Part shown: piece after piece, positions 12,333-30,369 of the stretch
Layout: each line of letters opens with the position of its first letter
Numbering within the stretch: the stretch's first letter is position 1
NCBI GenBank assembly: GCA_020851775.1
Contig: JADZCB010000200.1
Span: 1-36,153 of the forward strand
Source of the DNA: Gammaproteobacteria bacterium
Lineage (GTDB): Bacteria > Pseudomonadota > Gammaproteobacteria > Ga0077536
Length of the DNA: 36,153 bases
Direction of reading: 5' to 3'
Position numbers and translations under genes: made by a program
Notes under the pieces: model-generated
Told to the model about the DNA's origin: nothing
The model's database searches: none
Seen by the model: only the letters and a program-made list of their open reading frames with translations

Positions 12333-15300
12333 ATGCGCGGAGCCTTCCTGTCGCGGTGCTGTCTGTGGCTACTCGTCGCCTGCGCAGGCGCTGCATCCGC
12401 CGCGCCGCGCGTGGAGTCGTTCAGTCCCGTCGGCGCAGTCAAAGGCGTGCGCCAGGTGCAGGTCCGTTTCGGCGCGCCGATGGTCGAGTTCGGTGATCCG
12501 CGTGCACCGGCACCGTTCACGATCGACTGCCCCGTTCCCGGCCGCTCGCACTGGGTCGACGATCGCCACTGGGTCCACGCCTTCGAGCACGATCTGCCGG
12601 GCGGCATCACGTGTCATTTCACCGTGCGCACTGCGCTGCGCACCACGGCCGGCGCGCCGCTGACCGGCGAGCGCCGTTACAGCTTCGACACCGGTGGCCC
12701 GACGATCGTCGCGAGCGAGCCGTGGGAAGGCGCCCAGATCGACGAGGAACAGGTGTTCCTGCTCGGCCTCGACGCGCCGGCGACGCACACGAGCCTCGAG
12801 GCCGGCGTGCACTGCCGCGTCGACGGCATCAACGAAGCGATCGGTGTCGAGGTTCTCACCGGCGACGCACGCCGCGCCGCGCTGGAGGCGAACGGCTGGT
12901 TCCTGCGGCGCTATGCGGCAGCCGTGATGAAGTCGCGCTACGAACAGGAGATGGTCGCGCGCACCGTCGACGATGAAGCGGCAGTACGCGCGCATTACGC
13001 CGCGCTCACCGACAGTCCGGACAGCCCGATCGTCGCGTTGCGCTGCCGGCAGCGGCTGCCGAACGCCGCGAAGATGTGGCTCGACTGGGGGCCCGGCATC
13101 ACCACCACGAGCGGTCTCACCGGCCGCGAGACGCAGACTCAGGCCTACACGGTGCGGCCGACGTTCCGCGCCACGTTCGGTTGCGAGCGGGTCAACCGTG
13201 CTGCGGCCTGCATGCCTGCGCGCGGGATGCGGCTGTCGTTTTCCGCGCCGGTCGCGCGCGACGATCTCGCACGCATCACGCTCGAGGATGCGCACGGACA
13301 CGCCTATCCCGTCACGGTCGAAGGCGACGCTGGCGAGGCGACGGCGCAGGGTGTGCACGTCGCGGGTCCGCTGCCGGCGCGCACGCACTTCCGTTTCACG
13401 CTGCCGTCTGCGCTCGTCGATGACGCCGGACGTACGCTCAGCGACGCGGCGCGTTTTCCGCTCGACGTCACGACCGATGAGGATCCGCCACTGGCGAAGT
13501 TCGCCGCGCGCTTCGGCATCATCGAACTCGCCGGCGACGCCGCGTTGCCGGTGACGGTACGCAATCTCGAACCCAATCTACTGCGCCGACCGACGCCGCC
13601 GGTGCACAAAATCGAACCCTCGCTGGGCGGTTTCGTGCGCGATCTCGCGGCGCGTGCCGGCGCCGTCGAGCGTGGCGACAGCGAACCGCCGTTGGCGGTC
13701 GCGTCGATCCGCGGCCGTGTGCTGAAAATCGATCCGGCGGAGACGGCACAGGTCGGACAATGGTTCGACGCGGTCGAACGCGCGGGTCGCGACGCCTACG
13801 CCTGGGACGACGCGCGTGCGGAATACGTGACGACGCAGCGTGCCGGCAGCATCGAGGTGCTGCAGAAGGCGCGCGACGCGCGTCTGCTCGAAGTCCCGCG
13901 CGCTGCGCCGGCCAAGGCGTTCGAAGTCATCGGCATTCCGCTGCGCGAGCCCGGCTTCTACGTCGTCGAACTCGCGAGTCCGCGGCTCGGCGCGGCGCTG
14001 TTCGGCACCACCGGTACCTATTACGTGCAGTCGCTCGCGCTGGTGACCAATCTCGCGGTCCATCTGAAGCTCGGCCGCGAGTCTTCGCTCGTGTGGGTGA
14101 CGGCGCTCGATTCCGGCAAGCCCGTCGCCGCCGCGGAAGTGATCCTCAACGACTGCGCGGGCAACACGCACTGGACGGGGACGACGGATGCGACGGGGCT
14201 CGCAGCGATCGACGTCGCGCTGCCCGCGCCGTCGGCGCGGCCGGCCTGCGCGTGGAATTCGCACGGCTTCGTCGCCATCGCGCGACACGGCGGCGATACG
14301 GGTTTCGTGGCGTCGGACTGGCAGCACGGGATCGCCACCTGGCAATTCGGTCTGCCGGCACCGTCGAACCCGGCGCCGCAACTCGTGAGCACCGTCTTCG
14401 ATCGCACGCTGTTCCGCGTCGGCGAAACGGTGCACATGAAGCACGTGATGCGCGAACGCACGACCCGGGGCTTCGCGCAGTGGTCGCCGCGGAGCCCTGT
14501 CCTGCGCGTGCGCCACGAGGCGAGCGGCGACGAATTCCCGCTGACGGTCGATGTCGCGACGGCGAGCGGCAATGCGACGTCGACATGGCGCATTCCGGCG
14601 AGCGCCAAGCTCGGCAGCTACATCGTCGAACTGATCGATGGTGAACGCACGTTCGGCGCCGGCAGCTTCCGCGTCGAATCCTTCCGCGTGCCGTTGCTGC
14701 GCGCCGAGCTGCAGCCGCGCGGCCTGCCGCTGGTGCGGGCGGACTCGCTCGCGCTCGACGTGCAGGTGAACTATCTGACCGGCGGCCCCGCCGCCGAGCT
14801 GCCGATCGGTCTGCGCGGCGTGATCGAAACGCGCGAAGTGTCGTTCGCCGACCATCCCGACGTCAGGTTCATGAACGGCAATGTCGAGACCGGCAGCGAC
14901 AGGCAGATCGAACAGCCATGGCGTGCGACGGATTCCGCCCCTGTCGACACCGAGGTGCTCGAGGCCCGGCGCGCCGTGCTCGACGCCGCCGGCGGTGCCC
15001 GCCTGACGCTCGACGTGCCCGACAGCGACCGGCCGCGGACACTCGTCGCCGATCTCGAGTATCCCGATCCGAACGGCACGACGTTGACGACCGCGGTGCG
15101 GGTGCCGCTGTGGCCCTCGCACGTGGTGCTCGGTGTGAAGCCCGACGGCTGGGCGCTGAGTCGCAAGGCGCTGCGTTTCCATGTCGTCGCCGTCGCGCTC
15201 GACGGCACGCCGCGCGCGAACATCGATGTCACGGTCGATCTGCTCCAGCGCAATACGTATTCACATCGCAAGCGACTGGTCGGCGGCTTCTATGCCTACG

Positions 15301-18167
15301 AACATCGCACGGAGGTGACGAAGCTCGGTGAAGCGTGCCGCGGGCGTACCGACGCACAGGGTCTGCTGGTCTGCACCGGCGAGTCACCCGCCAGCGGCAA
15401 TCTGATCCTCGTCGCCCATGCGCTCGACGCCGAGGGCCACGCGAGCCACGCGCACCGCGACGTCTGGGTCGCCGGCGACGACGACTGGTGGTACGCGGTC
15501 GGCGATCACGATCGCATGGATCTGATCCCCGAGCGCAAACGCTACGAACCCGGCGAGACGGCGCGGCTGCAGGTGCGCATGCCGTTCCGCACGGCACAGG
15601 CGCTGGTCACCGTCGAGCGCGAAGGCATCGTCGAGTCGTTCGTCACCACGTTGTCGGGCAAGGCGCCGGTCGTCGACGTCCCGCTGCACGGCGGGCACGC
15701 GCCGAACGTCTTCGTGTCGGTGCTCGCGGTACGGGGACGGGACACGCAGGTGCAGCCGACGGCACTCGTCGATCTCGGGCGGCCTGCCTACAAGCTCGGC
15801 ATGACGGAGTTGAAGGTCGGCTGGCGCACCCACGAACTCGACGTCAAGGTGACGCCGCGACGCACGGTGTATCAGGTGCGTGACGCCGCGCAGATCGACA
15901 TCGAGGTCACGCGCGCCGACGGCAGGCCGCTCGGTGCCGACGCCGAAATCGCGCTGGCGGCGGTCGACGAAGGACTGCTCGATCTGCGCGCGAACGAAAG
16001 CTGGAACCTGCTCGAGACGATGATGGGCCGGCGCGGTATCGAAGTGCAGACGGCAACGGCGCAGATGCAGGTCGTCGGTCGCCGGCATTACGGCCGCAAG
16101 GCCGTGGCGCCCGGTGGTGGTGGCGGCAGCGGCGGCGCGAACCGGATGCTGTTCGACACCCTGCTCGCGTGGCAGCCGCGCGTGAAACTCGATGCGCAGG
16201 GACACGCGCGGGTCAGCGTGCCGCTCAACGACTCGCTGACGAGCTTCCGGATCGCCGCCGTCGCGACCGCAGGCACCGGTCATTTCGGCGCCGGGACAGC
16301 GACGATCCGTACCACGCAGTCGCTGATGCTGTTCTCCGGCCTGCCGGGCGTCGTGCGTGCCGGTGATCGCTATCGCGCCGTCTTCACCGTGCGCAACGCG
16401 GACGAAGTGTCGCGCGTCGCGACGATCACCGCGGCAGTCAGCGCGGCCGATGGCGCGCCACTGCCGGCACTCGCGCCGCAAACAGTGGAACTGGCGCCCG
16501 CAGCGGCCCGGGAGATCGCGTGGGAGCTGACGGCACCGGCGAGCGGCGCGGAACTGCGCTGGCAGATCGCCGCGACGGTCGCCGACGAGGCAGCGCGATC
16601 CGATCGCCTTGCCGTGACCCAGCGCATCGTCCCGGCGCTGCCCGTACGCACGATCCAGTCGACGCTGCAGCAGGTACGCGACATCGTCGACGTGCCGATT
16701 GCCGCACCGGCCGATGCCCTCGCCGGCGGCGGCATCGCCGTCCGCCTCGACGCGAATCTCGCCGCGACACTCGACGGTGTGACGCAGTACATGCGCGAGT
16801 ATCCGTATCGCTGTCTCGAACAGCGCGTGTCGCGCGCGATTGCACTCGACGACGACGCGGCATGGCAGGCACTGATGGACGAATTGCCCGGCTATCTCGA
16901 CGCCGACGGCCTCGCCAAATACTTTCCGACGTCCGGCCCGGGCAGCGACGTGCTGTCGACCTACCTGCTCGCGATCGCTGCCGCCGACGGGCGCGCGATC
17001 CCGGATCCGGTGCGCGAACGCCTGCGTCAGGGACTCGTGAACTTCATCGAAGGTCGTCTGCACCGCGACTCACCGCTGGCGACCGCCGACCTGGCCTTGC
17101 GCCGGCTCGCCGCGATCGAAGCCCTGAGCCGCTATCCCGACGGCGTCCAGGCTGGCTGGATCGACAGTCTCGACATCGAACCGGCGCGCTGGCCGACCTC
17201 GGCGGTGATCGACTGGATCGATCTGCTGCAACGACATACCGGCCATCCCGACCGCGCTGCGCGCCTCGCCGAGGCGCTCGGCATCCTGCGCGCGCGCCTC
17301 TTGCTGCAGGGAACCACGCTGAACTTTTCGACCGCAGCGAACGACGCGTTGTGGTGGCTGATGTTGTCCGCCGACGTCAACGCGAACCGTACGCTGCTCG
17401 CGGTGATGGAACGCGCGGACTGGGCCGACGACATCCCGCGTCTGGTCACCGGCAGCCTGCATCGCCAGCGCGCGGGCCACTGGGACACGACGACAGCGAA
17501 CGCCTGGGGTATGGTCGCGATGCGGGCGTTCGCGCGTCGCTTCGAAGCCGCCGGAGTCGCAGGCCGCACGCGCGCGACGCTCGCGGACGCCGCGTGGACG
17601 GCCGATTGGGCGGGCGCGACGCCCCGCGCGCATGCGTTCGACTGGCCGGACGCGCCCGCGCAGTTGCGGATCACGCATGAGGGCAGCGGTGCACCGTGGC
17701 TCAGCGTGCAGAGCCGCGCGGCGATCCCGTTGCGCGTCCCGCTGTTCCAGGGCTTTGCGATCACGCGCACCGTCGTCCCGGTGCAGCAGCACACTCCCGG
17801 CCGCTGGCAGCGCGGTGACGTCTATCGCGTCCGGCTCGACGTCGACGCGCAATCCGACATGACCTGGGTGATCGTCACCGATCCGCTGCCAGCCGGCGCG
17901 ACCGCGCTCGGCGGCGCGCTCGGCCGCGGCAGCGAGGCGCTGGACGTCACGGCGGTCGAGCGCGTCGTGCCCGTCTTCGAGGAGCGCCGCGAAGAGGTGT
18001 TTCGCGCGTATTACGACTATGTGCCCAAGGGTCGCTTCCAGCTCGAATACAGCGTGCGGCTGAACAACGCCGGTGAACTGCAACTGCCGCCGACGCGGGT
18101 CGAGGCCTTGTACGCACCGGCGATGGCCGGTGAGCTGCCGAACGCGACGCTGAATGTCGAGCCATGA
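12333..18167 (+). CDS. Bacterial alpha-2-macroglobulin with thioester (YfhM/ECAM-like)
   Basis: A 1944-residue periplasmic protease trap. The N-terminus has an export signal; LVAC ending at Cys17 resembles a lipobox, as in lipoprotein homologues, but a signal peptidase I site at ASA-AP a few residues later is also possible. A long series of macroglobulin-type beta domains follows, then a Gly-rich linker near residue 1260, then the A2M domain with PLNDSLTSFRIAAVATAG. The helical thioester domain holds CLEQ at C1494-Q1497 after REYPYR, so the covalent protease-trapping bond can form. A protease cutting the bait region would be captured. The stop overlaps the pbpC start by 4 bases, the usual pairing in which damage to the wall and protease attack are handled together. 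Confidence 0.93.
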   Translation: MRGAFLSRCCLWLLVACAGAASAAPRVESFSPVGAVKGVRQVQVRFGAPMVEFGDPRAPAPFTIDCPVPGRSHWVDDRHWVHAFEHDLPGGITCHFTVRTALRTTAGAPLTGERRYSFDTGGPTIVASEPWEGAQIDEEQVFLLGLDAPATHTSLEAGVHCRVDGINEAIGVEVLTGDARRAALEANGWFLRRYAAAVMKSRYEQEMVARTVDDEAAVRAHYAALTDSPDSPIVALRCRQRLPNAAKMWLDWGPGITTTSGLTGRETQTQAYTVRPTFRATFGCERVNRAAACMPARGMRLSFSAPVARDDLARITLEDAHGHAYPVTVEGDAGEATAQGVHVAGPLPARTHFRFTLPSALVDDAGRTLSDAARFPLDVTTDEDPPLAKFAARFGIIELAGDAALPVTVRNLEPNLLRRPTPPVHKIEPSLGGFVRDLAARAGAVERGDSEPPLAVASIRGRVLKIDPAETAQVGQWFDAVERAGRDAYAWDDARAEYVTTQRAGSIEVLQKARDARLLEVPRAAPAKAFEVIGIPLREPGFYVVELASPRLGAALFGTTGTYYVQSLALVTNLAVHLKLGRESSLVWVTALDSGKPVAAAEVILNDCAGNTHWTGTTDATGLAAIDVALPAPSARPACAWNSHGFVAIARHGGDTGFVASDWQHGIATWQFGLPAPSNPAPQLVSTVFDRTLFRVGETVHMKHVMRERTTRGFAQWSPRSPVLRVRHEASGDEFPLTVDVATASGNATSTWRIPASAKLGSYIVELIDGERTFGAGSFRVESFRVPLLRAELQPRGLPLVRADSLALDVQVNYLTGGPAAELPIGLRGVIETREVSFADHPDVRFMNGNVETGSDRQIEQPWRATDSAPVDTEVLEARRAVLDAAGGARLTLDVPDSDRPRTLVADLEYPDPNGTTLTTAVRVPLWPSHVVLGVKPDGWALSRKALRFHVVAVALDGTPRANIDVTVDLLQRNTYSHRKRLVGGFYAYEHRTEVTKLGEACRGRTDAQGLLVCTGESPASGNLILVAHALDAEGHASHAHRDVWVAGDDDWWYAVGDHDRMDLIPERKRYEPGETARLQVRMPFRTAQALVTVEREGIVESFVTTLSGKAPVVDVPLHGGHAPNVFVSVLAVRGRDTQVQPTALVDLGRPAYKLGMTELKVGWRTHELDVKVTPRRTVYQVRDAAQIDIEVTRADGRPLGADAEIALAAVDEGLLDLRANESWNLLETMMGRRGIEVQTATAQMQVVGRRHYGRKAVAPGGGGGSGGANRMLFDTLLAWQPRVKLDAQGHARVSVPLNDSLTSFRIAAVATAGTGHFGAGTATIRTTQSLMLFSGLPGVVRAGDRYRAVFTVRNADEVSRVATITAAVSAADGAPLPALAPQTVELAPAAAREIAWELTAPASGAELRWQIAATVADEAARSDRLAVTQRIVPALPVRTIQSTLQQVRDIVDVPIAAPADALAGGGIAVRLDANLAATLDGVTQYMREYPYRCLEQRVSRAIALDDDAAWQALMDELPGYLDADGLAKYFPTSGPGSDVLSTYLLAIAAADGRAIPDPVRERLRQGLVNFIEGRLHRDSPLATADLALRRLAAIEALSRYPDGVQAGWIDSLDIEPARWPTSAVIDWIDLLQRHTGHPDRAARLAEALGILRARLLLQGTTLNFSTAANDALWWLMLSADVNANRTLLAVMERADWADDIPRLVTGSLHRQRAGHWDTTTANAWGMVAMRAFARRFEAAGVAGRTRATLADAAWTADWAGATPRAHAFDWPDAPAQLRITHEGSGAPWLSVQSRAAIPLRVPLFQGFAITRTVVPVQQHTPGRWQRGDVYRVRLDVDAQSDMTWVIVTDPLPAGATALGGALGRGSEALDVTAVERVVPVFEERREEVFRAYYDYVPKGRFQLEYSVRLNNAGELQLPPTRVEALYAPAMAGELPNATLNVEP

Positions 18168-20296
18168 AACGACGCAGCGGCGTCATGCTCGCGGCGCTCA
18201 CGATCGGCGCCGTCGTGCTCGGCGCGCTCGTCATCTCCGATCGCACACCTGAGGTACCGGACTTCGCCGCGGTCCGCGCCGCACATCCCGCCAGCGAATC
18301 GCGGCTGCTCGATCGTCATGGCCGGCTGCTCCACGAGCGACGCACCGATCCGACCCGGCGCCGCGGGCAGTGGACGCCGCTCGCCGCGATCTCGCCGCGC
18401 CTGCGCGACACCGTCGTCGCGCTCGAGGATCGGCGCTTTCCGCGCCACGCCGGCGTCGACTGGCTCGCCATCGCTGCCGCCCTGCGCGATGGTCTGCGCG
18501 GTCGGCCGCGCGGCGCCAGTACGATCACGATGCAGGTCGCCGCGCAGATCGAACCGGCGCTGCGCGCCGGCAAGCGCCGCAGCCTGACCCGGAAATGGCG
18601 CCAGATCACCGCCGCCCGTGCCGTCGAGCGCCGCTGGTCAAAGGCCGAGATCCTCGAGGCCTATCTCAATCTCGCGAGCTATCGCGGTGAGATCGCCGGC
18701 ATCGACGCCGCCGCGCGCGCGCTGTTCGGCAAGGCGCCGGTCACGCTCGATGCCGACGAGGCGCTGCTGCTCGCAGTGTCGCTGCGCAGTCCGAACGCCG
18801 CGCCGTCACGCGTCGCCGTGCGCGCCTGCCGGCACACCGCGTCGTCCGCTGCTTGCGAACGCCTGACGCGACTGGCGTTGACGCGGCTGACCGGCGTCCC
18901 GACCCTGACACCGGCAGCCGATCTCGCGCCGCACGTCGCACGGCGCCTGCTGCGCGGCGGCGACGCGACGCGGACGACGACGCTCGATGCCCGCCTGCAG
19001 CGGTTCGCGCTCGACAGTCTCGCACGCCAGTTGCGACAGCTCGCGCCGCGCAACGTCCATGACGGCGCCGTGCTGGCGGTCGACAACCGGAGCGGCGAGG
19101 TCCTGATCTATGTCGGCAATGGCGGCGTCTGGTCCTCGGCGCGACACGTCGACGGTATCCGCGCGCCGCGTCAGGCCGGCTCGACACTGAAACCATTCCT
19201 CTACGCGCTCGCCGTCGAACAGCGGCTGCTGACGGCCGCGTCGCTGCTCGAGGACAGCCCGATCAATCTCGAGACACCGACCGGCCTCTACGTGCCCCAG
19301 AACTACGACCATCGCTTCCGCGGCATGTTGAGCCTGCGCGCGAGCCTCGCCGGCTCGCTGAACGTGCCGGCGGTACGCACGCTGATGCTGCTCGGGCCCG
19401 ACGCGTTCGTCACGCGTCTGCGCGAACTCGGTTTCGACGGCGTCGACCGCGACGGCGACTATTACGGCTATGCGCTCGCACTCGGCGCCCCCGAGGTGAC
19501 GCTGTGGCAGCTCGTGAACGCCTATCGCACGCTCGCGAACGGCGGCCTGCGCTCGCCACTGAACCTCGAGCCAGGCGACGTCGCGGCACCGCAATCGACA
19601 GCGTCGCCAGCCGGTGCGATGCGTGCCGCTGCCGCGTTCGTCATCGGCGATGTGCTCGCCGATCGCGACGCGCGCAGCGCGAGCTTCGGGGTCGACAATG
19701 CGATGAATCTGCCGTTCTGGGCGGCCGTGAAGACCGGCACCAGCAAGCAGATGCGCGACAACTGGTGCATCGGATATACCGCGCGCTACACCGTCGGCGT
19801 GTGGATCGGCAACTTCGACGGCGCGCCGATGTGGGACGTCTCGGGCTTGAGCGGCGCGGCGCCGGTGTGGGCCGAGGTCATCAGCCAGTTGCAGGCCGCA
19901 GATCCGGGCACACCGCCGAGGCCGCCGGCCGCTGTCGAGCGCGTGCCGGTCCGCTTCGCGGGCACGGGAGAGCCTCCCCGCGAGGAATGGTTTCTGCGCG
20001 GCACGGCGACACGGCGGATCGAGCAGACGCCGCCGGCGCGCCGCCCCCCGCGCATCATCTATCCCGGCAACGGCAGCATCCTGGTCATCGATCCCGACAT
20101 CCCGTCACGCCACCAACGGGTGTTTCTCGCGAGTCGGCCATCGCATGCGGCATACACCTGGACGCTGGACGGAACCCCGCTGGCCGCCGCCGCGTGGGCG
20201 CCGCAGCCCGGACACCATACGCTCGACCTCATCGACGAAGACGGGCTGCGCGTCGATCGCGTGCGCTTCGCGGTGCGGGGAACGCCGCTGCCGTGA
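18164..20296 (+). CDS. pbpC: Penicillin-binding protein 1C
   Basis: A 710-residue bifunctional class A type PBP anchored by one N-terminal membrane helix (about 7-25). The GT51 glycosyltransferase domain has ALEDRRFPRHAGVDW with catalytic E88, GASTITMQ at 117-124 and RKWRQ. The transpeptidase domain has the active-site S340-T-L-K343, S398-L-N400 and KTGTSK at 523-528. The C-terminal 90 residues are the BiPBP_C-like domain typical of PBP1C, with the WTLDGTPL segment. All catalytic residues are present. It polymerises or repairs peptidoglycan in the periplasm. Translationally coupled to the alpha-2-macroglobulin by an ATGA overlap. Confidence 0.95.
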   Translation: MKRRSGVMLAALTIGAVVLGALVISDRTPEVPDFAAVRAAHPASESRLLDRHGRLLHERRTDPTRRRGQWTPLAAISPRLRDTVVALEDRRFPRHAGVDWLAIAAALRDGLRGRPRGASTITMQVAAQIEPALRAGKRRSLTRKWRQITAARAVERRWSKAEILEAYLNLASYRGEIAGIDAAARALFGKAPVTLDADEALLLAVSLRSPNAAPSRVAVRACRHTASSAACERLTRLALTRLTGVPTLTPAADLAPHVARRLLRGGDATRTTTLDARLQRFALDSLARQLRQLAPRNVHDGAVLAVDNRSGEVLIYVGNGGVWSSARHVDGIRAPRQAGSTLKPFLYALAVEQRLLTAASLLEDSPINLETPTGLYVPQNYDHRFRGMLSLRASLAGSLNVPAVRTLMLLGPDAFVTRLRELGFDGVDRDGDYYGYALALGAPEVTLWQLVNAYRTLANGGLRSPLNLEPGDVAAPQSTASPAGAMRAAAAFVIGDVLADRDARSASFGVDNAMNLPFWAAVKTGTSKQMRDNWCIGYTARYTVGVWIGNFDGAPMWDVSGLSGAAPVWAEVISQLQAADPGTPPRPPAAVERVPVRFAGTGEPPREEWFLRGTATRRIEQTPPARRPPRIIYPGNGSILVIDPDIPSRHQRVFLASRPSHAAYTWTLDGTPLAAAAWAPQPGHHTLDLIDEDGLRVDRVRFAVRGTPLP

Positions 20297-20359: not shown

Positions 20360-20366
20360 TCTGCGC

Positions 20367-21191
20367 ATGAAAGCTCACTGGCAACTCTCCGACCTGCACT
20401 GGGATGCCGTCGCCCCTGCGACGGTCGGTCCAGAACTCCTGCAAACCATCAAGACGGCCGCGCTGATCGAAGCGAACAGCGCCGACTACGTCGCCTATCT
20501 GCGCAACGTGTTCGCCGGCGACGACGACTTCACGCAGGCAGCCGAGCAATGGGGTATCGAGGAAGCCCAGCACGGCCGTGCGCTCGGTCGCTGGGCCGAA
20601 CTCGTCGATCCCGGTTTCGACTTCGCCGCTGCACTGGCGCGCTTCCGTGCCGGCTATCGCGTCCCGATTGACGTGCAGCAGTCGGTGCGCGGCTCGCGTA
20701 CCGGCGAACTCGTCGCCCGCTGTGTCGTGGAATCCGGAACCTGCTCTTTCTACTCGGCGCTGCGCGATGCCGCACCGGATCCGGTGCTGCGCGACATCTG
20801 TCACCGTATCGCGCAAGACGAAGCCCAGCATTTCCGGCTCTTCAAGCAGCATCTCGAACGTTACCAGCGACGCGAACCGCTGCGGCGGTGGACGCGCGCA
20901 CGGATCGCGCTCGGCCGGATCTTCGAGACCAGTGACGATGAACTGTCCTATGCGTATTACAGCGCGAACGTGCCCGCACACACGGCCTATGATCGCGTGC
21001 GTCACGGCACGGCCTACTGGCGTCGCGCGATGAGTTTCTACGCCGAGCGTCACTTGCAAGGTGCCGCACACATGGTGACGCTCGCGATCGGCAGCGCCCG
21101 CCTGTCACGCCACACGCGCCGGCTCGGCCGCCTCCTTTACCTCGTCACACGCTGGCGTCTGCGTCGCCTCGAAGCGGCCGGCGCGGCCTGA
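20367..21191 (+). CDS. Ferritin-like di-iron protein, function unknown
   Basis: A 274-residue soluble alpha-helical protein. It carries the classical carboxylate-bridged di-iron ligand set over four helices: E35, E66-x-x-H69 (WGIEEAQHGR), E122 (CVVESGTCSFY) and E152-x-x-H155 (QDEAQHFRLF). This places it in the ferritin-like superfamily, near rubrerythrin-like and acyl-ACP-desaturase-like proteins, but I cannot assign a substrate. The Arg-rich C-terminus (last 40 residues) is predicted helical and could be membrane-peripheral. The ATG at 20367 starts the conserved part; longer upstream frames run into pbpC. It is transcribed after pbpC with a 70-base gap and a possible own promoter, and converges with the fatty acid hydroxylase gene. 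Confidence 0.75.
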   Translation: MKAHWQLSDLHWDAVAPATVGPELLQTIKTAALIEANSADYVAYLRNVFAGDDDFTQAAEQWGIEEAQHGRALGRWAELVDPGFDFAAALARFRAGYRVPIDVQQSVRGSRTGELVARCVVESGTCSFYSALRDAAPDPVLRDICHRIAQDEAQHFRLFKQHLERYQRREPLRRWTRARIALGRIFETSDDELSYAYYSANVPAHTAYDRVRHGTAYWRRAMSFYAERHLQGAAHMVTLAIGSARLSRHTRRLGRLLYLVTRWRLRRLEAAGAA

Positions 21192-21235: not shown

Positions 21236-22171
21236 TCAGAGATCGAGCGCCGAATCGGCTGGCGCGGCCTGATAGCGTTTCCACCTGAACGGCATCAGCA
21301 ACTGGCCGAGCAGTCTGCGCGGCATGCGATCGTGGATACCGATGAACCCGGGACCGGCTTCGCGCTTGTACAGCCAGGTGCCGAAGAGCTGGTCCCACAC
21401 GAGCAGGTTCTGACCGTAGTTGGTGTTGCCTTCGACGGGGCTCGTCGAATGATGCCAGCGGTGCAGGTTCGGCGTGTTGAACAGATAGTTCAGCCAGCCA
21501 CAGCGCATCGCGACGTTACAGTGGGTGAGGACACCGACGTAGGCGGTGATCGCGCTGACCCAGATGATTGCGTCCATCGAAATGCCGGTCGCGAGCAGGA
21601 ACGGCACGCTCGCGAGCACGCTCAGATTCGAGTCGATGAAGTGAAAGCGGCCGGTGTTGACGATCCACAGGCGCTTCACGCTGTGATGCACGGCGTGGAA
21701 GCGCCACAGCAGCGGCCATTCGTGGCCGAGGCGATGGGCCCAGTAGAGCCCGAACTCGGTGGCGACCAGGCCGATGATGATCTGCTGCCACAACGGCAGC
21801 GCACCGATCACGCCGCTGCCGCGATTGGCGAAGAACTCGAGACTCATCAACTGGATGATCGTGATCTGCACGAGGCCCTTGTTGAGCAGCGTATGGCCGA
21901 GATCGGCACCGATCTGACCGTCGTTGCGCCGCCAGTCGGAACGATACGGAAGGTGCTTCTCGAGCACGAACAGCCACAGCACGATCCACGCGTACGACAG
22001 GTTGAAGTAGATCGCGGGATGCCCGCGTGTGAACCCGATGGCGAGAATCGCACCGCTCGAGACGATGAGCGCCGGCCATGCGAACATCGCGATGAAGGAC
22101 GCGAGCGCACCACGCTCGCAGGCGTCGGCGGGCAGCACGGCGCCGCCCGGCAGGTTCGGATTGTCGGTCAC
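21236..22171 (-). CDS. Fatty acid hydroxylase / sterol desaturase superfamily membrane protein
   Basis: A 311-residue membrane protein from the GTG at 22171. It has several hydrophobic helices and the histidine clusters that bind a non-heme di-iron centre: HRLGH, then FHAVHHS, then NLHRWHHS. Members hydroxylate or desaturate lipids in the membrane; the substrate here is not known. A ribosome-binding-like GGAG lies 11 bases before the GTG. The frame is open to an ATG at 22234, but that would overlap the previous gene by 46 bases. It follows the secreted Cys-rich protein gene on the same strand, overlapping or nearly so, and is probably co-transcribed with it. Confidence 0.85.
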   Translation of the reverse strand: MTDNPNLPGGAVLPADACERGALASFIAMFAWPALIVSSGAILAIGFTRGHPAIYFNLSYAWIVLWLFVLEKHLPYRSDWRRNDGQIGADLGHTLLNKGLVQITIIQLMSLEFFANRGSGVIGALPLWQQIIIGLVATEFGLYWAHRLGHEWPLLWRFHAVHHSVKRLWIVNTGRFHFIDSNLSVLASVPFLLATGISMDAIIWVSAITAYVGVLTHCNVAMRCGWLNYLFNTPNLHRWHHSTSPVEGNTNYGQNLLVWDQLFGTWLYKREAGPGFIGIHDRMPRRLLGQLLMPFRWKRYQAAPADSALDL

Positions 22172-22188: not shown

Positions 22189-22911
22189 CTACTGGCGGAC
22201 TGCCTCGGCCACCGGTTGTGTCGGCGCACTGCATTCGAGGCGCAGTGCGGTGCTCACTTCGTAGTCGTCACTGTCGCGGTCGCGCGCGAGACCGCAGTGT
22301 ACGCGCGTCTCGACCTGTAACCCGGCCTGGTCCGGCTCGATCGTGAACTGATAATTCGGGCTGCAGTTCGCTTCGCAGCGTCGGTAGAGTTCCTTGCCCT
22401 CCTCGCCGCGGCCTTGTGAAAAGGCCATCACCCAATCGTTCAGCGCGTTGATCGATTCGAAATGACGTGACGGAAATTCGAACGGACGCGCGCGCGTCTG
22501 CGCGTCGAGCTTGCGGCAGACGGTCTGCTGTTCCTGCTTCGGCAGTAGATTGATCGGACCGACCCGGTAGACGACGCGCGGTTTGTCGTCCCGGCAGTCG
22601 CCACAGGCGGTGGCGGCCGAGGCCGCCTTCTTCTGGCGATCGAGCGCTTCGTTCAGCAGCCGGCCGGCGACGGCCCGGATCGATGCGGGATGTTCCGCAA
22701 TGTTGTACATGATGCCGGCCGAGCCGACTTCGCTCGCGATCGGCACGTCGGCGACCCCGGGCTTGCACGACGGCGCGGGCACGCTCGGGGAGGTTGCTTC
22801 GGCGGGCGGCGTATCGATCTCATCGAGCCCGTCGGCACGCGCCACGACCATGACGCTCACCCCAAGCAGCAGGCCGGCGAGCAACGAGGTGTTGAAGAAG
22901 AAAGTCTTGAT
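22189..22911 (-). CDS. Unrecognised secreted Cys-rich protein, non-standard start
   Basis: I do not recognise this protein. The likely reading begins KTFFFNTSLLAGLLLGVSV and MVVARA, a clear signal peptide, then a mature part with nine cysteines (CKPG, ACGDC, VCRKL, RCEANC, VHCGL, LEC), suggesting a disulfide-bonded periplasmic protein. The best ribosome binding site, AGGAG (22923-22919), stands seven bases before ATC at 22911, not before ATG, GTG or TTG. The first ordinary in-frame start upstream is GTG at 22965, but that lies inside the predicted -35 box. A TTG inside the signal peptide is the other option. It precedes the hydroxylase gene on the same strand. Confidence 0.6.
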   Translation of the reverse strand: MKTFFFNTSLLAGLLLGVSVMVVARADGLDEIDTPPAEATSPSVPAPSCKPGVADVPIASEVGSAGIMYNIAEHPASIRAVAGRLLNEALDRQKKAASAATACGDCRDDKPRVVYRVGPINLLPKQEQQTVCRKLDAQTRARPFEFPSRHFESINALNDWVMAFSQGRGEEGKELYRRCEANCSPNYQFTIEPDQAGLQVETRVHCGLARDRDSDDYEVSTALRLECSAPTQPVAEAVRQ

Positions 22912-22936
22912 CGGGGATCTCCTGGCGACGCGCGGT

Positions 22937-22965
22937 AGTGTATGGGCGCCGCAGGCGATCGTCAC
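22937..22965 (-). promoter_or_regulatory. Promoter of the secreted Cys-rich protein gene
   Basis: Minus strand GTGACG (22965-22960), 17-base spacer, TACACT (22942-22937). Start of transcription would be near 22930, seven bases before the AGGAG ribosome binding site. This placement argues against translation from the GTG at 22965. Confidence 0.55.
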
Positions 22966-29088: not shown

Positions 29089-30369
29089 TCAGCGCCGTAA
29101 CGCGCTCGCGAGCTCCCGCGTGGTCTGCCGCAGACGTTCGATGAGGACGTTCTGAAAAGCCTTGCCGAGACGCAACTGACAGGGCAGCGAGGCCCAGTCC
29201 TTGAAATCGCGGTCGATCTTGACGACGGTGGTGTCGCGGTTCGCATTGACGGTGGCACTGCGACCACCGTCGGCGAGATATTCCATTTCGCCGAAGCAGT
29301 CACCGGGATCGAGATCGCGGATGCGCACGCCGTTGATCGATACCGCAACCCCACCCTCGGCGATCACGTAGAACGCGCGTTCCTTGTCACCCTCGGAGAA
29401 GATCGCCGCGCCCGTTTCGTAACGACGCCAGGTCGACACCTTGGCGATTTCCTTCAGTTCGTTCTTGCCGAATTCCCCGAAGAAACCGAGTTCGGCGAGC
29501 TTGGCGAGCTTCTGCTCGTCGGTCAGCACCAGCGGCAGATTGCGCGCATCGCCGAGCAGGCCGTCGAGATCGATGACGAGTTCGGCGCCGGTCTTGTAGC
29601 GCCGCTTGACGTCTTTCTCGAGCAACTTGCGCACGATGGGCCAGAGTTGATCGGGCAGATCGGGACGATGCTGGGCGAGCGGCGCAGGATCTTCGTGACA
29701 GACTTTCTGGATGAGGCCGGTCAGACCTTTCGCAGCGAACGGCGGCGTACCGGTCAGCATTTCGTAGAACACGGAGCCGAGCGAGAAGAGATCCGACTGC
29801 GGCGTAATTTCGGCATCGCGTGCCTGCTCCGGCGACATGTACAGCGGCGAGCCGAACCAGCCGACGATCTGTGTCTGATCGGCGCCCATGCGTCGCGCGA
29901 TGCCGAAATCGCCGAGCTTCGCGACCCCGTCCTTCGTCAGCATGATGTTGGCCGGCTTGATGTCGCGATGGAGCACGCCGTTGCGATGCGCGTAGTCGAG
30001 AGCGTCCGCCGCCTGGCGGATCACGCGGATGACCGTCGGCACCGGCAGCAATGATTCCTTGCGGCAGTAGTTGCGCAGGGTGTCGCCGCCGTCGATGAAC
30101 TCCATCACCATGTACGGCTGACCGTTGTCCTCGCCGGCCTCGTAGACCTTCAGGACGTTCTGGTGGTCGAGCCGGCCGGCCGAGCGTGCCTCGTTGATGA
30201 ACAGCCGGCGCGCGACGCCTTCGTTGTCGGCGTCGGCATTCGTGGCGAGCTTGATCGCGACGGGCCGATCGACGTAAGGATCGTGAGCGCGGTAGACGAC
30301 GCCCATCGCACCCCGCCCGAGTATGTCGATGACGTCGTACTTGCCAATCTTCGCCGGATTTTCGCTCAT
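29089..30369 (-). CDS. Ser/Thr protein kinase with C-terminal cyclic-nucleotide-binding domain
   Basis: A 426-residue cytoplasmic protein without membrane segments. The Hanks-type kinase domain covers about 10-270: glycine loop GRGAMG at 18-23, K40 in VAIK, E60, catalytic H134-R-D136 with KPAN following, D154-F-G156 and SPEQA at 179-183. All catalytic residues are intact. From about 295 to 390 it is a cNMP-binding domain with GDCFGEMEYLADGGRSATV, containing the phosphate-binding E361 and R370, so ligand binding is plausible. Fusion of kinase and cNMP domain in one bacterial protein suggests direct ligand control of kinase activity. Its ATG overlaps the stop of the PilZ/DUF1631 gene by 4 bases. 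Confidence 0.92.
   Translation of the reverse strand: MSENPAKIGKYDVIDILGRGAMGVVYRAHDPYVDRPVAIKLATNADADNEGVARRLFINEARSAGRLDHQNVLKVYEAGEDNGQPYMVMEFIDGGDTLRNYCRKESLLPVPTVIRVIRQAADALDYAHRNGVLHRDIKPANIMLTKDGVAKLGDFGIARRMGADQTQIVGWFGSPLYMSPEQARDAEITPQSDLFSLGSVFYEMLTGTPPFAAKGLTGLIQKVCHEDPAPLAQHRPDLPDQLWPIVRKLLEKDVKRRYKTGAELVIDLDGLLGDARNLPLVLTDEQKLAKLAELGFFGEFGKNELKEIAKVSTWRRYETGAAIFSEGDKERAFYVIAEGGVAVSINGVRIRDLDPGDCFGEMEYLADGGRSATVNANRDTTVVKIDRDFKDWASLPCQLRLGKAFQNVLIERLRQTTRELASALRR

Follow-up and report, generated by a model that had tools for sequence, protein, structure and literature searches.

Start site of the secreted protein gene

The window, by which we mean the whole 36,153-nucleotide stretch of DNA that was analysed, carries a gene for a secreted protein that an earlier sequence-only reading had started at an ATC codon, and the locus therefore raises the question of whether translation begins at that codon and, if so, whether so weak a start is an accident or has been kept. 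We hold it very likely that ATC 22911 is the translation start. The span of the gene is most likely 22189 to 22911, the longer interval 22189 to 22965 being that of the open reading frame started with GTG. Our main reading, to which we give a probability of roughly 0.6, is that the AUC is translated and that this weak start is kept by selection for a low, IF3-sensitive dose of a protein that would be the partner of the hydroxylase encoded next door. The coordinates of the features are collected in Table 1. Read from ATC 22911 the N-terminus is IKTFFFNTSLLAGLLLGVSVMVVARA, which by eye resembles a signal peptide, and in the orthologues with ATC or ATT at this place (ATY copies) the N-terminal signal peptide from the proposed start likewise looks clear, as judged by eye.

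Table 1. Features of the secreted protein gene and its surroundings in the window
Feature	Position	Strand	Basis or remark
CDS, secreted protein, 240 codons	22189..22911	-	Start ATC 22911-22909, stop TAG 22191-22189; sequence and orthologues
Non-canonical start codon ATC	22909..22911	-	ATC/ATT at the same place in 17/35 scored orthologous starts, 10/10 in the genus
Shine-Dalgarno (SD) AGGAG	22919..22923	-	GGAG exactly 7 nt before ATC; duplex -7.4 kcal/mol
Signal peptide, by eye (K2, hydrophobic core, ARA cleavage site)	22834..22911	-	Sequence inspection
Mature domain, as modelled	22192..22803	-	AlphaFold2 mean pLDDT 88.4, 24-row alignment
Probable -10 box TACACT	22937..22942	-	Predicted transcript start about 22929-22930, leader about 18 nt
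Possible -35 box GTGACG, contains GTG 22965	22960..22965	-	Weak match; 17 nt from TACACT
Downstream gene, fatty-acid hydroxylase family (PF04116)	21236..22171	-	Probable start GTG 22171, inferred
Convergent conserved neighbour, perhaps ferritin-like	20361..21191	+	Present in 24/36 related loci

Start codons across orthologues

Orthologues were present in 30 of the 36 genomes of the GTDB family to which the window belongs, the closest being L002, which is 64% identical. A search of 22 genomes outside that family gave no matches, and 369 genomes of the class gave three, all within the family. The genomes of the relatives were assembled from metagenomes or single cells of uncultured bacteria. Several records titled as Klebsiella pneumoniae MAGs (L051, L053, L055, L057 and L066) also carry the secreted protein family; these labels are probably wrong, since the family was not found outside the window's GTDB family in the genomes searched.

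Starts were scored at 35 of the 37 gene places; L006, at a contig edge, and the truncated L036 were left out, and L079, which repeats L022, was excluded from the counts. Seventeen starts were ATC or ATT, 17 were ATG (among them the divergent L018, L020 and L034, whose labels are uncertain) and one was ambiguous. This last, L035, has a GTG and two ATC codons after GGGAG, and is counted below among 18 non-ATG rows and outside the 17 ATY copies. The sequence-only reading had advised checking the codon in relatives, and the check supports it: ATC or ATT is retained in three genera. All 10 scored copies in g1, the window's own genus, are ATY, as are four of six in g8 (the other two being ATG) and three of five in g10, where the remaining two are divergent copies labelled ATG. 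The unusual start is not universal, as the 17 ATG starts show, and no clear ATY was found in g3 (6 ATG), g7 (2 ATG), g6 (2 ATG) or g5 (3 ATG and the ambiguous L035).

The ribosome binding site AGGAG with its seven-base spacing, proposed from the window by itself, also holds in the relatives, as GGAG stands exactly 7 nt upstream of the start in 15 of the 17 ATY copies, the window included, a recurrence beyond coincidence. The exceptions, L021 and L033, lack GGAG and pair at only -4.2 kcal/mol. Among 14 ATY representatives (nine ATC, five ATT, no ATA) identity was 0.89 in GGAG, 0.33 in the spacer and 0.84 in the start codon, and on the coding side 0.66 in codon 2, 0.33 in codons 3 to 6 and 0.30 in codons 7 to 12; codon 2 begins with AA in 13 of the 14. 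The conservation of the start codon and of the SD is partly circular, because being ATY was the criterion for choosing these rows, and the SD helped in part to recognise them. That circularity does not touch the free variation of the spacer while both its flanks stay fixed, nor the lack of alternative starts, nor the fact that every scored copy in the genus (10 of 10) is ATY.

On a tree of the mature proteins (35 rows, with L035 omitted and L006 and L020 carrying no label) the division into ATY and ATG needs at least three changes, and that between ATC and ATT needs four. Since neither main clade of the family lacks ATY, it is probably old, several deep branches of the tree being weak. A recent point mutation from ATG, one of two origins that had been suggested for the codon, is refuted by the ATC or ATT found throughout the genus and in seven copies from two other genera. 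Sequencing error is ruled out together with it, as the codon recurs in 16 other copies. Conservation in the genus and in both main clades makes a rare start that has been kept the better reading.

Alternative in-frame starts

The GTG at 22965 is in frame and open, and was confirmed as the only canonical start codon upstream of the ATC when the frame was followed for 55 codons to the stop. Were it or another upstream canonical codon the start, the ATC would be an internal Ile codon. L008, L014 and L029 carry an upstream canonical codon as the window does, and these four are the only ATY copies that do so; in the other 13 of 17 the stretch from the ATY codon back to the upstream in-frame stop is free of ATG, GTG and TTG, and in L005, L019, L021 and L033 that stop lies 4 to 5 codons from the start. 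L002 has no canonical start in the 21 codons upstream, its GTG being out of frame because the distance from the -10 box to the ATC is 24 there and 25 in the window. The window's GTG moreover sits inside the possible -35 box, and the region around it aligns between genera as promoter-like DNA. On the missing codons, the distance shift and the promoter-like alignment GTG 22965 was rejected as the start, and we regard initiation upstream as largely refuted and very improbable. Orthologues with ATG or GTG elsewhere in the same frame had been named by the sequence-only reading as counting against it; none turned up within the genus, where the other nine scored copies have no canonical codon as far back as the stop. 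In other genera ATG does occur.

Equally improbable is a start at a downstream canonical codon, or a gene in decay. The window copy does contain TTG, GTG or ATG codons 9, 17 or 20 codons in, but starts there would cut into the signal peptide, and such codons vary in position between orthologues, L022 having none in the next 29 codons. Decay is opposed by a protein that is well conserved, with five invariant cysteines in one count and six in another.

Promoter and leader

The arrangement GTGACG-17-TACACT had been described as a good promoter. The hexamers are indeed present, and are also found in L002, but the adjective does not survive, as each hexamer matches at four of six positions by our own count and a strict promoter scan of the window reported none. 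A TAnnnT hexamer ends 24 to 27 nt before the start in 9 of the 17 ATY rows, while a comparison sample of 219 genes gave four hexamers at those four distances; of the other eight ATY rows, five have no TAnnnT within 44 nt and three have one at 30 or 35. The predicted leader of about 18 to 20 nt therefore follows from the spacing of 24 to 27 nt. No common hairpin was seen in the leader in single folds of 16 rows.

Farther upstream, about 47 to 63 nt before the start, a direct repeat like GTTAAG-N5-GTTAAG, with an 11-nt period, was observed in L003, L005, L019 and others, and is absent from the window and L002. We take this repeat to resemble the boxes of two-component response regulators.

ATG orthologues and a possible leaderless architecture

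The anti-SD duplex averaged -7.0 kcal/mol in the 18 non-ATG rows, L035 included, versus -2.0 kcal/mol in the 17 ATG rows (Mann-Whitney p 1.7e-6), a comparison in which the rows are related and the ATY rows were partly recognised by their SD. Three ATG rows of g5 and L031 reach about -6 kcal/mol. The difference would suit an explanation in which the ATC start is real and has no IF3-linked regulation, initiation running at a fixed low rate that is partly balanced by the strong SD, while ATG copies, whose SD is poor or missing, come to much the same rate. We think this possible, with the odds leaning against it. The same limits on the rows bear on its chief support, and sensitivity to IF3 is to be expected of any AUC start, so that this explanation departs from the selected, IF3-sensitive dose of our main reading mainly in whether the cell makes use of that sensitivity.

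Upstream of the ATG starts a different arrangement was seen. A TAnnnT box stands 7 nt before the ATG in L007, L030, L023, L024 and L028 and 6 nt before it in L025 and L026, that is, in 7 of the 16 ATG rows scanned (L020 was not among the 16). In the alignment L007 and L030, both of g8, retain the promoter columns of the ATY copies and have no leader. Genus g3 offers weaker evidence of leaderless messages, because its upstream DNA is AT-rich and has TAnnnT at several distances, and because L027 has none at 6 to 7 nt. In the genome sample of 219 genes, 10 hexamers lay 6 to 8 nt before an ATG versus 3.9 expected from the mean over distances, and leaderless genes could be widespread in the window's GTDB family. 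In that sample -10-like hexamers were commonest 7 nt before the ATG (six in 219 genes). Of 300 sampled ORFs, only 93 had a canonical start with an SD of at least 4 nt near the coding boundary.

infC, ORF sample and initiator tRNA

A further explanation would make the codon a habit of the lineage, through a second initiator tRNA for AUC and AUU or through a general use of Ile codons as starts. It draws on infC, which in the window's GTDB family begins with ATC in 16 copies and ATA in 11, together all 27 copies read. These came from 29 matches, L114 and L118 falling outside the reading pattern, and L102 has an ATT before its ATC; in the genome of the window itself, which is incomplete, infC was not matched. 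The infC start letter follows lineage, with ATC in g1, g8, g9 and g10 and ATA in g3, g5, g6 and g7.

The habit was looked for in 300 ORFs from 469 kb of five genomes. At sites with an SD of at least 4 nt neither ATC (0.85) nor ATT (1.02) was enriched, and when 5 nt or more was required the window gene alone was flagged (ATC 1/320, ATT 0/210, ATA 0/94), in a scan of limited sensitivity that flagged one of the four ATY-bearing loci sampled (the window, L038, L042 and L044), the L042 copy not being in the gene list. Lineage-wide ATC starts are thus not supported by this sample. The initiator-tRNA stem pattern TCGGGCTNATAACCCGA returned the anticodon CAT only, one copy in each of 30 of the 36 genomes, the window's included. 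No special initiator tRNA reading AUC was found within the stem pattern tested, which would miss a tRNA with another stem. With sampled gene starts and tRNA both against it, we give this explanation next to no credence.

Protein and gene neighbourhood

The window protein gave no Pfam match over the cut-off, no NCBIfam match and no match to PDB sequences at E up to 1. A Foldseek search with the model of the mature protein had no hit within the E limit of 0.001. The best fold match of the model (Z 5.2 over 118 residues, rmsd 4.2) is not a clear match among solved structures.

The product of the downstream gene has OlsE, an ornithine lipid hydroxylase, as its best NCBIfam model, at 294 bits and so below the cut-off of 475. 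Neighbours were surveyed in 36 related loci (L047 to L081 and L045). A close homologue of this hydroxylase (56-76% identity) lies directly downstream on the same strand in 25 of them, and in seven, the copies of the other clade, a distant homologue (27-34% identity) is adjacent on either side and either strand. This gives a hydroxylase-family neighbour in 32 of 36 loci; two have none (L076 and L078) and two end at a contig edge. Judged by gene order, the secreted protein family appears to be in durable partnership with a hydroxylase-family gene. Because of this adjacency our best guess is that the window protein, secreted or periplasmic, acts as partner to a membrane lipid hydroxylase.

For the convergent neighbour the ferritin-like hint comes from weak Pfam matches of a longer ORF, all below cut-off, and 20361..21191 itself has none. 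Elsewhere in the window, a bacterial alpha-2-macroglobulin gene adjoins that of penicillin-binding protein 1C on the plus strand (12399-20293), with homologues beside the locus in relatives; the pairing of these two is known elsewhere. On the minus strand, positions 29092-30363 encode a protein kinase domain fused to a cyclic-nucleotide-binding domain.

Comparison with known non-canonical starts

Non-canonical starts of this kind are already known (infC, pcnB, sigR, ccpN and cvfC1), and the secreted protein gene is, as far as its sequence tells, a new member, having ATC at an SD-fixed position, a strong and well-spaced SD, and conservation in relatives. In E. coli the AUU start of pcnB limits a chromosomal gene. 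The likeness to infC lies in a non-canonical AUH start with an SD, the start being ATC or ATA in the infC copies read here; infC differs in encoding the autoregulated factor itself, whereas the window gene encodes an unnamed secreted protein. With sigR of Streptomyces (PMC5472188) the window gene shares a rare start, a strong conserved SD, genus-wide conservation and its place as upstream gene of a pair. The sigR start is GTC, its product is a sigma factor and its control by IF3 comes from experiment (PMC5472188). The cvfC1 (AUU) and ccpN (AUA) genes of Staphylococcus aureus share with it a conserved AUH start and an SD, and differ in encoding a small protein and a transcriptional repressor, respectively, and in having been mapped by ribosome profiling; their SDs are extended and their yields are below that of AUG (PMC13009471). 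A likeness to leaderless AUG mRNAs (PMC9031893) is possible for the seven ATG orthologues with a TAnnnT box 6 to 7 nt upstream, whereas the window gene has an SD and a predicted leader. In the portions of the literature consulted, no secreted protein with a conserved AUC or AUU start was found.

Proposed mechanism and significance

The conserved odd start, mostly accompanied by a strong SD, suggests that weak, controllable translation is deliberate. In the mechanism we propose, the strong SD of the short leader, 7 nt before the AUC, would keep the 30S subunit correctly placed, and the usual initiator tRNA (anticodon CAU) would form a mismatch at the third position of AUC. IF3 would slow initiation at the AUC, so that output would be low and would increase as free IF3 becomes scarcer, in the manner of infC and sigR. 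Such low, IF3-sensitive expression would follow from what is known of the mechanism: IF3 represses the GTC start of Streptomyces sigR (PMC5472188), and in vitro, with AUU as the codon and CAU as the anticodon, extra IF3 meant that a smaller fraction of the product was full-length (PMC10158994). Selection would then keep the weak start because it holds the dose of a secreted, cysteine-rich protein low and sensitive to IF3; this protein may work with the membrane enzyme of the lipid-hydroxylase family encoded next door. The suggestion that this is a rare AUC start, possibly a regulated one, is accordingly upheld for the start by the conserved ATC or ATT, while control by IF3, like the low yield and the selection for it, is something that we infer.

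Few bacterial non-canonical starts have been characterised so far. Genes that have them are misplaced by start prediction, which takes ATG, GTG or TTG for granted (PMC5472188). Here such a start was found by comparison alone, for a secreted protein of an uncultured family, and tied to a hydroxylase-family gene. The finding suggests a screen for more such starts, in which an ATY column is sought at a fixed distance from the SD while the spacer drifts.

The second, apparently leaderless AUG architecture among the orthologues makes it testable whether IF3-sensitive initiation can be rebuilt from different parts. More infC lowers the translation of model leaderless mRNAs, in an account that also tells of conflicting results (PMC9031893). 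Since IF3 reportedly disfavours non-canonical starts and, when in excess, model leaderless messages too, selection might conserve IF3-sensitive initiation itself, the cis-solutions being interchangeable: an SD with AUC or AUU in three genera, or a leaderless AUG in L007 and L030 and perhaps in g3. We consider this unlikely. If it were true, the gene would naturally sense free IF3 or 70S initiation and would couple the state of the ribosome to an envelope protein and its lipid hydroxylase.
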